Shown in pieces: positions 4,800-35,785 of a stretch of DNA of 40,091 nucleotides. A program made the translations under genes and the position numbers. How positions within the stretch are numbered: the stretch's first letter is position 1; each line of letters begins with the position of its first letter. Source of the DNA: Acidimicrobiia bacterium (GTDB lineage: Bacteria; Actinomycetota; Acidimicrobiia; Acidimicrobiales; Bin134); assembly GCA_022821445.1 (NCBI GenBank), contig JAJEDQ010000121.1, positions 1-40,091 on the forward strand, in the 5' to 3' direction. Below the pieces are notes generated by a model. It was not told where the DNA came from and made no database searches. It saw only the letters and a program-made list of their open reading frames with translations.

Positions 4800-5675
4800 G
4801 TGCGGGTCCACCTTGTTGACGGGACATATGAGCTGTTCCGCTACCACTTCTCCCCGGGCAACCGCGACGCCGAGCGGGGAGCGGCCCGGGGCGTGGTACA
4901 CAGCATGCTCCAGCTGGTGGACGACGGGGCCACCCACATCGGAATAGCCACCGATCAGGTGATCGAGTCGTTCCGCAACGAACTGTGGCCCGGCTACAAG
5001 ACCGGCGAAGGGGCGCCCCCCGAGCTGATGGCCCAGTTCCCCCTGGTGGAGGAGGCCCTAGCCGCCGCCGGTTTCTGCATCTGGCCCATGGTCAGGCACG
5101 AGGCCGACGACGCGATGGGCGCTGCGGCCCGCAAGGCCGCTCTGGCTCCTGAAGTGGAGCAGGTGCTGATCTGCACCCCCGACAAAGACCTGGCCCAATG
5201 CGTCACCACCGATGGGCGCATCGTGCAATACGACCGCCGCCAACAGAAACTCATCAACCACCAAGGGGTAGTGGACAAGTTCGGGGTGGCACCCGAGTCG
5301 ATCCCCGACTACCTCGCCCTGGTGGGAGACACCGCCGACGGCTTCCCCGGCCTGGCCGGCTGGGGCGCCCGCTCCACCGCGACGGTGCTGTCCCACTACA
5401 TCCACCTGGAGAACATCCCCGACGCCGTCGGCCAGTGGGAGGTGAGCGTGCGGGGTTCGGCCAAGCTGGCCGCCACCCTGGCCGAGAACCGGGAGCTCGC
5501 CATGCTGTTCCGTCGCATCGCCACCATCGACGACGGTGCCCCGACGTTTGATGGCCTCGACGAATTAGAGTGGGCCGGCCCCACCCCGGAGTTCCCCGAG
5601 CTGATGAGCAGATTGGGCGGCGACCATCTTGTTGAGCGGGCCGACGACCTGAAGCGCCGATTGGGAAAGGCCTGA
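4800..5675 (+). CDS. 5'-3' exonuclease (PIN/H3TH flap-nuclease family)
   Basis: 291 aa, a stand-alone relative of the 5' nuclease domain of DNA polymerase I. It would remove 5' flaps or RNA primers in repair and replication. The start is the GTG at 4800, giving MRVHLVDGTYELFRYHF, where the first aspartate is the usual N-terminal metal ligand; the leaderless -10 TACGGT agrees. Further acidic motifs are HEADDAMGAAARKAA and CTPDKDLAQCV. The helix-three-turn-helix region is near FGVAPESIPDYLALVGDTADGF with the glycines of PGLAGWGARS. There is no polymerase domain. A longer frame runs upstream into the thiolase gene but has no support. Confidence 0.85.
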   Translation: MRVHLVDGTYELFRYHFSPGNRDAERGAARGVVHSMLQLVDDGATHIGIATDQVIESFRNELWPGYKTGEGAPPELMAQFPLVEEALAAAGFCIWPMVRHEADDAMGAAARKAALAPEVEQVLICTPDKDLAQCVTTDGRIVQYDRRQQKLINHQGVVDKFGVAPESIPDYLALVGDTADGFPGLAGWGARSTATVLSHYIHLENIPDAVGQWEVSVRGSAKLAATLAENRELAMLFRRIATIDDGAPTFDGLDELEWAGPTPEFPELMSRLGGDHLVERADDLKRRLGKA

Positions 5676-31990: not shown

Positions 31991-32074
<84 letters not shown>

Positions 32075-32084
32075 CGTCTGGGGT

Positions 32085-32588
32085 TCAACCCACCGTTCCG
32101 TCGGGGGTAGGGGTGGGCACTTCGGTGACCGGAATAACCGGTGGTGGACCCCAGGCAATTGCCGCTTTGGAGAACCCGGCGGCCATGGCCACCGTCAGAG
32201 CCAGTTCAGCCAGCTCGGCCGGGGTGAACTCCTCGCCCAGCGCCGCTTGGTCCGCCGCACTAAGCCCTGACGGGTCGGAGATCACCGCATCAGCCATTCT
32301 CAAGGCCAGCTTCAACCGATCAGGCAGGTCGCTATCGGCGTAGCCATCTTGGATCTGGTCCACCAGATCTTCGGTGAGTCCCTGCTGCTTCGCACCTGCG
32401 AAGCGGAGGTTCTTTCAAATGTTGCAGTCGTTGACCCGAGCGTTGCGAAGCCGGCCCGCCTCCTTGGTGGCTTGGTCAAGCTGTCCCTCGCTCCACAGGG
32501 TTCCGTAGAAGCGGTTGAACACCGTGAACAACTCGGGCTGATGGTCGAACAACGACATGCCCCCCTCGGGGATGGCAATCCTGGTCAT
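32085..32588 (-). CDS. Carboxymuconolactone decarboxylase/AhpD-like protein, probable selenoprotein (in-frame TGA = Sec58)
   Basis: Read through one TGA, this is a 167-residue protein; read normally, it breaks into a 57-residue piece and an orphan. It starts MTRIAIPEGGMSLFDHQPEL. At residues 50-62 it reads ARVNDCNI-U-KNLR, with TGA (32417-32415) in the second position of the CxxC redox motif of AhpD/CMD proteins. The frame continues without shift (FAGAKQQGLTEDLVDQIQDG, then LKLALRMADAVI, FTPAELAELALTVAMAAGFS) to a TGA at 32085. Ten nt after the inner TGA a hairpin with an AGGU loop looks like a bacterial SECIS. Relatives are peroxidases or thiol-disulfide-type enzymes. The ATG overlaps the upstream gene's stop (ATGA). 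No selA, selB, selC or selD is in the window. Confidence 0.85.
32387..32404 (-). promoter_or_regulatory. SECIS-like hairpin of the CMD/AhpD selenoprotein
   Basis: On the minus strand, 10 nt after the TGA, GCTTCGC-AGGT-GCGAAGC forms a perfect 7-bp stem with an AGGU loop. A CCU/AGG lower stem with internal loops can extend it. E. coli fdhF SECIS also has a GCAGGU apex, which SelB binds; spacing here is in the usual range for bacterial SECIS. Confidence 0.75.
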
Positions 32589-32953
32589 TCCATGACTCCC
32601 TTCAACACGGCCCGGCTGCGGGCCAGGGCTTCGAACGTGGCAATGGCCGTGGTGAGTGCGGCCAATTCGGGTGCCGACAGATGAGCGTTCAGCTCAGCGC
32701 ACAGCTCATCGGTCACCCCGTGGGCGTCCAGCACGTATTGCTCAGTGAACGCCAGCACAACGCCTTCTCGGTCATCTTGAGGAGAAGCAGAGGACGGCTC
32801 GCCGCCAATCATCTGCTCGATGCGGGTGGCGCAAAGTTCCAGCAATCCGGGATCCAGCCCCACGCCATCGAGGGCCTGCACCAACTCCTCCAGCGGGCCA
32901 GCCACATGGGGGTCCAAGGCGCCCAGGGGATTGTCGGTGGAAGTTGAACTCAT
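32585..32953 (-). CDS. CMD/AhpD-fold-like protein without redox cysteines
   Basis: 122 aa from the ATG at 32953 (MSSTSTDNPLGALDPHVAG). The C-terminal half (VVLAFTEQYVLDAHGVTDEL, then LSAPELAALTTAIATFEALA) aligns by eye with the corresponding part of the selenoprotein gene that follows, including the APELAAL/PAELAEL helix. The place of the CxxU motif is LCATRIEQMIGG, without a second Cys or Sec, so peroxidase-type chemistry is not expected. It may be a partner subunit or a degenerate paralogue. The stop overlaps the next ATG (ATGA), and the gene begins 5 nt after the hydrolase gene. Confidence 0.75.
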   Translation of the reverse strand: MSSTSTDNPLGALDPHVAGPLEELVQALDGVGLDPGLLELCATRIEQMIGGEPSSASPQDDREGVVLAFTEQYVLDAHGVTDELCAELNAHLSAPELAALTTAIATFEALARSRAVLKGVME

Positions 32954-32958
32954 GCCCA

Positions 32959-33675
32959 TCACCCGCCGAACATCGCCATCCATTGCTCGGCCGAGCGGGG
33001 CATGAACACATAGTTGGTTTGGCGGGTCTCGCCCATAGACGCCGACGGCTGGGGCGAGTACAGATGGCCGGGATACAGCGTCGCACTGTCGGGAACCCGG
33101 GCCAGGCGCTGCGTCAGGCTCTCGTACATTGCCGCCGGATCGCTCCCCGGCAGGTCGGTCCTCCCGCACCCCTCCAAGAACAGCGTGTCGCCGGCCACCA
33201 AACGCCCGTTGGTCAAAAAGCACTGGCTCCCGGGAGTATGGCCCGGGGTGTGGATCATCTCAATGTCCACCTGTCCCACCGACAGCACATCACCGCTCTT
33301 GTGCAAACACAGATCGTCTTCCTCAATACCGGTAGCCATGGTCACATAGCGGGCTTCGTCCGCCTGCACATGCACCGTAACCGACACCAGCTCTAGCAGC
33401 TCGGCCACCCCCGTGATGGAGAACTGCATCATCGACCCGCCCACATGATCAGGGTGGTAATGGGTAGCCAATACCCCGGCGAGCCGCATCCCGTCGGCTT
33501 CAACAAGATCCACAATCCCCTGTGGATCATAAGCCGGGTCCACCACCACTGCTTCCCCCGTTTCCCGATCCCCAATCAGATAGACAAAATTCACCATCTG
33601 CCGGGCCATCATGTCCCCAACCGCCAAGTCCCGCCCCGACAACAACTGCCGAAAATAAAGCCGATCCTCGTTCAC
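32959..33675 (-). CDS. Metallo-beta-lactamase-fold hydrolase (glyoxalase II-like)
   Basis: 238 aa MBL-fold hydrolase. It has the metal motif THYHPDHVGG (HxHxDH), then HTPGHTPGSQCFL, GDTLFLEGCGRTDLPGSD and a C-terminal PGH in LYPGHLYSP. The arrangement fits glyoxalase II, persulfide dioxygenase or related thioester hydrolases. GCGRTDLPGSD is common in persulfide-dioxygenase/rhodanese-type members, so sulfur chemistry is possible. The GTG start has a strong Shine-Dalgarno (GGGAGGGG) 3-5 nt upstream. It is the first gene of an operon with two CMD-fold genes, the last of which encodes the probable selenoprotein. Confidence 0.9.
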   Translation of the reverse strand: MNEDRLYFRQLLSGRDLAVGDMMARQMVNFVYLIGDRETGEAVVVDPAYDPQGIVDLVEADGMRLAGVLATHYHPDHVGGSMMQFSITGVAELLELVSVTVHVQADEARYVTMATGIEEDDLCLHKSGDVLSVGQVDIEMIHTPGHTPGSQCFLTNGRLVAGDTLFLEGCGRTDLPGSDPAAMYESLTQRLARVPDSATLYPGHLYSPQPSASMGETRQTNYVFMPRSAEQWMAMFGG

Positions 33676-33710: not shown

Positions 33711-33828
33711 ATAGGCAGGCTGGGGGGTGGCCCGGCTCAGGGCGCCTGCCGCCCGGAGCTCGTCGAGGACGGCGGGCTGGGCCGGGACAGGACCCGCCAG
33801 CCTGCCGGAGGATGGTAAACCCCTAGGC
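33711..33828. repeat. Structured palindromic repeat, copy B (3' of larC)
   Basis: Second copy of the element at 9899-10016. The basal stem GGCAGGCTGG (33714-33723) pairs with CCAGCCTGCC (33797-33806). The upper stem GCCTGCCG (33744-33751) pairs with CGGCGGGC (33770-33777). The tip is CTC-GTC-GAG. Compared with copy A, three basal pairs are exchanged on both sides (U-A/C-G, G-C/A-U, C-G/U-A). The right end GGAGG-ATGGTA-AACCCCTAGG holds the TAG stop of larC (33825-33823 on the minus strand). The left end is ATAGG, as in copy A. Confidence 0.75.
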
Positions 33829-35010
33829 AACTGGCTCGTCGTCTCCCTGGCGCCGCCAAGCTTCTTCAGCCAACGAAACAACCTCCCGCGCCGGCAGCCC
33901 TAGCAGCTTCGACGCCCTAACAGCCTCGTCGTGCTCAACCTTGACTCTCCCCGCGCTCACCTTCACCCGAACGCGCCGGCCATCCACGTCCACCTCATGC
34001 TCCAACCGGGCCCGAGGCCACCGCTCGATCAACTGCCCCCGCACCCCCAGAGAACCCGTCTCCTCGGCCAGCGTGGCCGCCACCTGATCGCCCACCGCAG
34101 GATCGGCCAATGCACTCACCGTGTACGCCGGCCGCCCCTTCTTCATGACGATCGGCGCGATCCAGGCGTCGTGCGCCCCTGCATCCAACAGCGATGCCAC
34201 CGTGTGCGCCAGGGTCTCCCCCGTGGCGTCATCCACATTGGTCTCAAACAACATCACCGGCTGGCCCGCGGGGCGAGATGCCGCCATCGTCCCCACCACC
34301 ACTTGAGTCAGATTGGGCCGATCCTCCAGTTGGTTGTCGCCCGACCCAAATCCGCTTGCTGAGATCGTCATCGGCGGCATGGGCCCCCAGCCTTCCACCA
34401 GCGCCGAGAGAATTGCCGCACCGGTGGGAGTGGTCAGCTCCAGACCCACGTCCAAGCCGAACGTCGGGCACCCCACCAGCAGTTCCACCACAGCAGGCGG
34501 CGGATTGGGCAGCCGCCCGTGGGCACTGCGGATCATTCCCCGCCCGCACGCCACTGCACTGGAGTAAACCTGGTCGATCCCCAGTACCTCCAGCGCAGCG
34601 CAGGTACCTACCACGTCGATGATGGCGTCCAGCCCGCCCACTTCGTGGAAATGGACCTGCTCTGGCGGCCGGCGGTGCAGCTTGCCCTCGGCCCGGGCCA
34701 GGGCGTCGAAGACCGCCAGTGCCCGGTCGGCCACCCGGTCGGGCAGCCGTGCCTCTCCGACGAGGGCATTGATGTGACTGGCGGTGCGCACCACCGATGT
34801 CTCCTGGGTGATCACCCGCATGTCGGTAGCCGCGACACCCCCTCGCTGGGTGGGATGGGCTTGCAGATCCCAACCGCCCAAGGGCAGCAGTTCGCATATG
34901 TCCCGTACTTCGGCCACATCTGCCCCGGCGTCGATCAGCGCCCCCAACGCCATATCCCCCGCAATCCCGCTGAAGCAGTGGAACCAGGCAACCCCTGCCG
35001 GCTCAGCCAT
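33823..35010 (-). CDS. larC: Nickel pincer cofactor biosynthesis protein LarC
   Basis: 395 aa CTP-dependent nickel insertase that puts Ni into the pyridinium bis-thiocarboxylate nucleotide to form the nickel pincer cofactor of lactate racemase and related LarA proteins. Landmarks are FHCFSGIAGDMALGALIDAG, QVHFHEVGGLDAIIDVVG, ACGRGMIRSAHGRLPNPPPA, ELTTPTGAAIL, and a C-terminal CTP-binding domain after ETNVDDATGETLAHTVASLL. In Lactiplantibacillus the two halves are joined by programmed frameshifting; here the frame is continuous. It overlaps larB by 8 bp. larA and larE are not in the window. Its stop codon is the start of repeat copy B. Confidence 0.94.
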   Translation of the reverse strand: MAEPAGVAWFHCFSGIAGDMALGALIDAGADVAEVRDICELLPLGGWDLQAHPTQRGGVAATDMRVITQETSVVRTASHINALVGEARLPDRVADRALAVFDALARAEGKLHRRPPEQVHFHEVGGLDAIIDVVGTCAALEVLGIDQVYSSAVACGRGMIRSAHGRLPNPPPAVVELLVGCPTFGLDVGLELTTPTGAAILSALVEGWGPMPPMTISASGFGSGDNQLEDRPNLTQVVVGTMAASRPAGQPVMLFETNVDDATGETLAHTVASLLDAGAHDAWIAPIVMKKGRPAYTVSALADPAVGDQVAATLAEETGSLGVRGQLIERWPRARLEHEVDVDGRRVRVKVSAGRVKVEHDEAVRASKLLGLPAREVVSLAEEAWRRQGDDEPVA

Positions 35011-35785
35011 CGTTCAACCCCGTCGGAGACACTGCTCGCTCCCTCGTCTTGAACAGCCGCAGCACAGCGCAAGCCGCGCCAAAACCGTTGTCCACTCCCA
35101 CCACGGTCACCCCCGAGGCACACGAGGACAACATGGCCAACAGCGGGGTGACACCTTCAAGCGACGAGCCGTACCCCGCGCTGGTAGGCACAGCTACCAC
35201 CGGGGCGGGGGTTAACCCGCCAACCACCGAGGCCAGCGCGCCCTCCATGCCCGCCACCACCACCGCGGCGTCAGCTGAGGCCAATACCTCGACCTCACCG
35301 AGAATCCGATGAAGCCCGGCCACACCCACATCGTTCAGCCGATGCGGCGCCAAGCCGTGAGCAGCCAGCACCACGCCGCATTCGTCGGCTACCGGAAGGT
35401 CGGCGGTTCCCGCCGCAGCCAACACCACCCGCTCAGGCCGGGGCGCCGCCGGCCGCCACACCACGGTGGCGTCGTAGCGCTCCCCTCCGGGGTTGAGCTC
35501 CAACGAAGCGACCGCCTGCTCATCAGAGGCTCGGGTCAACAGCACGGGGCCACCCGGCTGATCCAGCAATTCCCTCACGATGGCTGCGCACTGGTCGGGG
35601 GTCTTTACCGGGCCGTATACCACCTCGGCCAATCCCTGTCGGAGGCTGCGATGATGATCCACCCGGGCAAAACCCAAATCAGCGAACGGCAAGCGGCGCA
35701 AATGCCGCACGGCGTCGTCCGCAGTCACCGTGCCGTCACGCACGTCTGCCATCAATTGCCGAACAAAGGCCTCATCCACTCCCAC
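35003..35785 (-). CDS. larB: Nickel pincer cofactor biosynthesis protein LarB
   Basis: 260 aa. LarB carboxylates nicotinic acid adenine dinucleotide and cleaves the phosphoanhydride, the first step to the nickel pincer nucleotide. The N-terminal part (FADLGFARVDHHRSLRQGLA, EVVYGPVKTPDQ) is typical. The C-terminal half is a PurE-like (AIR carboxylase) domain with TADLPVADE, VVVAGMEGALASVVGGL and VPTSAGYG. The GTG start at 35785 could be moved two codons in. It is transcribed divergently from pheA, with only 14 bp between the start codons, so promoters must overlap the genes or one another. Confidence 0.93.
   Translation of the reverse strand: MGVDEAFVRQLMADVRDGTVTADDAVRHLRRLPFADLGFARVDHHRSLRQGLAEVVYGPVKTPDQCAAIVRELLDQPGGPVLLTRASDEQAVASLELNPGGERYDATVVWRPAAPRPERVVLAAAGTADLPVADECGVVLAAHGLAPHRLNDVGVAGLHRILGEVEVLASADAAVVVAGMEGALASVVGGLTPAPVVAVPTSAGYGSSLEGVTPLLAMLSSCASGVTVVGVDNGFGAACAVLRLFKTRERAVSPTGLNDG

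Follow-up and report, generated by a model that had tools for sequence, protein, structure and literature searches.

A predicted CMD/AhpD-fold selenoprotein coupled to a cysteine-less paralogue in an Acidimicrobiia genome

The window analyzed here, a stretch of 40,091 nucleotides from an uncultured member of the Acidimicrobiia, carries on its minus strand a gene for a 167-residue protein of the CMD/AhpD fold (32085-32588), whose internal TGA (32417-32415) is predicted to be decoded as selenocysteine 58 (Sec58) in the motif C55-N-I-U58. Comparative analysis confirms this as a genuine selenoprotein gene of that fold, bearing out the probable selenoprotein of the preliminary description: TGA or a cysteine codon stands at this one position in all 54 homologous loci, a SECIS hairpin follows that covaries among them, and the genome holds the sel genes. 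Our best overall explanation, to which we assign a probability of about 0.88, is that Sec58 is inserted via the SECIS hairpin, that Sec58 and Cys55 together conduct redox chemistry, and that the protein acts with a paralogue encoded immediately upstream.

A reading frame continued across an in-frame TGA

The minus-strand frame extends from 32588 to a terminal TGA at 32087-32085 and contains, as first described, exactly one internal TGA, that of codon 58, in the context ARVNDCNI-U-KNLRFAGAKQQ. The preliminary description had placed this TGA at the second position of a CxxC-like motif; it does encode the second redox residue, which is the fourth position of a CxxU motif. A match to the Pfam CMD domain (PF02627; 2.3e-10, 40.8 bits against a gathering cut-off of 23) covers residues 18-78 and hence spans the TGA, so that the parts on its two sides belong to one protein. 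The start codon shares an ATGA overlap with the stop codon of the preceding gene, in keeping with the coupling initially proposed, and a tRNA-Leu(CAG) gene on the plus strand (31991-32075) bounds the gene just downstream. As had been anticipated of a plain gene caller, standard ORF calling splits the gene, yielding only 32085-32363 and 32312-32578. Such a split would also arise if the TGA were a true stop or an error of sequencing, and the half beyond it a remnant of a pseudogene or a gene in its own right; however, this interpretation is contradicted by the conservation of both the codon and the frame.

A search of a genome collection recovered 21 related loci, mostly from metagenome genomes of Acidimicrobiia, 20 of which cover the Sec site; all of these have TGA except that of Frankia nepalensis, which has TGC, while the twenty-first (L037) is devoid of the half bearing the site. 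When the homologue set was widened by profile searches of 296 genomes from the class and 396 from the phylum, the codon proved to be TGA in 38 of the 54 homologous loci, a count that includes a few genomes present twice, in two collections, and Cys (TGC or TGT) in the other 16, including Frankia, with no unrelated residue at the position in any of them. The Sec/Cys character requires six changes on the tree, at least five of them forced by well-supported branches, and Cys versions (G060, G191) co-occur with a Sec version (G064) within the same family of genomes. In the host genus, one TGA is present in all 15 full-length gene copies. Two genomes (G036, G096) with an apparent pair of TGAs have merely the Sec TGA and the terminal TGA, and a second Sec codon was rejected in both.

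The same TGA recurs in many independent assemblies, which excludes a sequencing error. Moreover, a comparison of 13 closely related sequences gives a dN/dS of 0.071 upstream of the TGA and 0.082 downstream of it, where the two alternative frames reach 2.0 and 4.1; hence, purifying constraint of about 0.08 after the TGA is confined to the frame in question. With Cys at the TGA position in other lineages, we rule out an ordinary stop, a pseudogene or an error, a reading that we consider highly improbable.

The SECIS hairpin and the selenium machinery

Ten nucleotides after the TGA, the preliminary description had noted a perfect 7-bp stem with an AGGU loop. This apical hairpin (32387-32404, minus strand) is exactly as stated (GCUUCGC/GCGAAGC), and a lower stem (CCUC/GGG) lengthens it to about 32380-32409. 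It agrees with the pattern of the published bacterial SECIS sets as described there, namely a stem-loop directly downstream with a small, G-containing apical loop (PMC1088965). At this fixed place, 29 of the 38 loci with TGA form all seven pairs and a further four form all but one; the remaining five, which are distant, have the stem in another register. By comparison, the 16 Cys loci retain between one and five of the seven pairs. L062, L065, L067, L068 and L069 encode more distant Acidimicrobiia selenoproteins of the CMD type, in which the TGA position is unchanged but the stem differs in register and loop, and constitute separate CxxU subfamilies.

Across 20 distinct sequences, pairing is maintained in 98.6% of cells and three pairs carry substitutions in both arms of the stem, a level of covariation reached by none of 500 shuffles and by no slid version of the stem; the single-strand fold of the region has a z of -2.4. 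The synonymous change (pS) is 0.09 over codons 59-61 and 0.06 over codons 62-68, as opposed to 0.41-0.49 further downstream, i.e., synonymous sites of codons 59-68 change 5-7 times less. This synonymous freeze combined with the conserved pairing points to an RNA constraint on top of that on the protein, as expected of a bacterial SECIS. Shuffling the synonymous codons of the stem locus by locus gave weak results when each was taken singly (P 0.006-0.21), as pairing is already favored by the encoded peptide RFAGAK; it is the tests across loci that carry the case for the SECIS. Neither the window as a whole nor the hairpin alone matched a SECIS family in Rfam, the single match being due to chance; the hairpin put forward for checking stands as a conserved, covarying SECIS, without a counterpart among the Rfam models. 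Taken together, the comparative sequence data establish that the UGA is translated and that the SECIS is under selection.

The genome also encodes all of the components for which a search had been advised. Adjacent selB and selA genes (C243:26064-27755 and C243:27770-28927) share a contig with a tRNA-Sec(UCA) gene (C243:48947-49038), a near-copy of which is present on a second contig (C78:218-309); the two are 97% alike over 309 nt and both lie near contig ends, and may reflect either differing strains within the bin or a true duplication. The selD gene (C91:27404-28348) has an in-frame TGA of its own within the motif GUAGK, with a strong hairpin after it, and SelD is itself predicted to be a second, independent selenoprotein of this genome. 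Every TGA-carrying genome tested possesses selA, and one Cys carrier (G111) is without it. SelB together with the Sec-tRNA is the established means of inserting selenocysteine; with the complete machinery in place and the element conserved, the hairpin would recruit SelB with Sec-tRNA(UCA) and direct the insertion of Sec at residue 58. A SelB-independent decoding of the TGA as Trp or some other amino acid, be it by an altered genetic code or by plain readthrough, has nothing in its favor beyond the in-frame TGA itself and is rejected as exceedingly improbable, since homologues carry Cys and never Trp, the SECIS is conserved solely where the TGA is, the set of sel genes is complete, and TGA terminates other genes, such as the upstream neighbor, as well as the selenoprotein gene itself.

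Active site and relationship to known CMD/AhpD proteins

The AlphaFold model of the selenoprotein (pLDDT 91) matches structures of the AhpD/CMD type, viz., 3c1l, 2gmy, 2prr and 2ijc, as well as PA0269. It shares the helical fold of the latter, and E43, C55 and U58 align with Glu36, Cys48 and Cys51 of PA0269, the same places being occupied by the Glu, the Cys and the second Cys of M. tuberculosis AhpD (PMC3141380). Unlike these proteins, it has Sec in place of the second Cys, Ile57 in place of Tyr50 (His132 in AhpD) and Arg62 in place of His55 (His137 in AhpD). That histidine is essential, and invariant among the AhpD-like structures compared (PMC3141380), whereas Arg occupies its position in all 32 aligned homologues of our set. 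The relay E-(11)-C-x-x-C-(3)-H of the AhpD-type peroxidases is accordingly present only as E43, C55 and U58, and cannot simply be transferred to this protein because its His is Arg62. Thus, the protein is predicted to share the redox residue pair of AhpD and to lie outside the full-relay peroxidase type; a peroxidase activity may be proposed by analogy, a proposal that the lacking histidine weakens.

That CxxU selenoproteins of the CMD/AhpD type exist in bacteria, as the preliminary description stated, agrees with the AhpD-like and CMD-like families predicted in 2005 and represented by hundreds of members in ocean data (PMC1088965, PMC2398784), and both are listed in a 2026 review (PMC13188914). 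Our protein resembles the AhpD-like selenoprotein family (COG2128/TIGR01926) in its CMD fold, its CxxU motif with Sec as the second redox residue, a SECIS just downstream, widespread Cys homologues and an occurrence in marine bacteria. Nevertheless, its score against TIGR01926 is 26.7 bits, below the cut-off of 81.8, which argues for a distinct subfamily, and it departs from that family in Arg62 for the relay His and in the coupling to an upstream Cys-less CMD paralogue. From its description, the CMD-like selenoprotein of the Sargasso Sea set (PF02627) is likewise comparable in combining the Pfam CMD domain with CxxU. The model NF053654 (GroundWater_YciW, YciW-related (seleno)protein) belongs to the same superfamily and matches 30 of the 32 aligned members, but the score of the window's protein, 26.6 bits, is far from its equivalog cut-off of 310. 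As the protein falls below every NCBIfam cut-off that was compared, its subfamily may lack a name. These comparisons give good support to a predicted new member of the long-known CxxU CMD/AhpD type, within a possibly unnamed subfamily. Set against the published relatives as they appear in tables and legends, Arg62 and the paralogous partner may not be unique to it.

Based on these residues, we propose that Sec58 is most likely the attacking selenolate, with E43 as a base and R62 as a charge partner, and that it would react with a peroxide or an oxidized-thiol or disulfide-type substrate. Cys55 would then resolve Sec58 as a selenenylsulfide, with a dithiol reductant restoring the enzyme. Alternatively, the selenoprotein might be neither a peroxidase nor a disulfide reductase, and instead catalyze reductive dehalogenation or another nucleophilic selenium chemistry. 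Reductive dehalogenation of this kind has been suggested for Bmp8, a debrominase of the CMD fold, as well as for the deiodinases. The invariant replacement of the relay His by R62 in all 32 aligned members would be compatible with this, as would the recovery of Bmp8 (6ohi, 6ohj), which shares the CMD fold, by both sequence-profile and fold searches. Several close relatives, judging from their record titles, are from marine or sponge organisms, settings in which organohalogens are common. However, Bmp8 employs Cys rather than Sec, antioxidant-type CMD proteins rank above it among the matches, and halogen-related genes were not seen among the neighbors. We hence regard such a chemistry as unlikely, and favor the redox chemistry of Sec58 and Cys55.

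The cysteine-less paralogue and the gene neighborhood

The gene upstream (32585-32959, minus strand), which shares the 4-nt ATGA overlap with the selenoprotein gene, encodes a shrunken, 124-residue CMD-fold paralogue that has lost the CxxC helix. Searched alone against Pfam it gave no significant match; profile comparison with hhalign recovers it as a CMD protein (98.1% probability, E 6.6e-14), and its structure model matches PA0269. The counterparts of this paralogue that precede the homologous genes in Frankia and other loci are unambiguously CMD proteins, and more distant loci retain the motif only as C-x-x-E. The pair of genes is conserved from the host genus to Frankia. In one complete relative (L037, OX638350.1), a deletion of ~0.57 kb at about 5000-5010 has removed most of the paralogue together with the first half of the selenoprotein gene, Sec codon included, and fuses the paralogue start to the remaining, C-terminal half of the latter; this loss indicates that the pair is not essential. 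Given the coupling and the conservation, the Cys-less paralogue is probably the partner of the selenoprotein, which it would join in a mixed ring or trimer.

Further upstream on the minus strand are genes for a metallo-beta-lactamase-fold hydrolase (glyoxalase II-like; 32959-33675), whose stop overlaps the paralogue start, and for LarC (33823-35010) and LarB (35003-35785) of nickel-pincer cofactor synthesis. In the window and in close relatives, these three genes are tightly packed with the paralogue and the CMD gene, in part overlapping, an organization that could suggest that the CMD pair serves the metabolism of its neighbors as a subunit or adaptor, e.g., in thiol chemistry of lactate or methylglyoxal metabolism. 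But the hydrolase, larB and larC are neighbors shared by close relatives only, and the pair has different neighbors in Frankia, in other Acidimicrobiia and in L034, which makes such a role quite improbable. Across the neighborhoods of the homologous loci only the paralogue is conserved, and we found no conserved neighbor that points to a substrate. A broader proposal, which we advance tentatively and at less than even odds, is that of a two-gene module conserved in Acidimicrobiia and Frankia, whose Arg-type CMD enzyme, with CxxU or CxxC, would associate with the Cys-less CMD pseudo-enzyme in a mixed complex with a chemistry other than that of the AhpD peroxidases, Sec and Cys having been swapped several times.

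We found almost no literature on selenoproteins of Acidimicrobiia or this actinobacterial group. The present analysis adds a securely supported Sec gene of the kind that ordinary gene callers split, and places the trait across uncultured, largely marine and sponge-associated actinobacteria. As Sec and Cys versions coexist in one subfamily, the effect of Sec is testable on closely related enzymes, and the coupled Cys-less partner offers a tangible way into the function of CMD selenoproteins.
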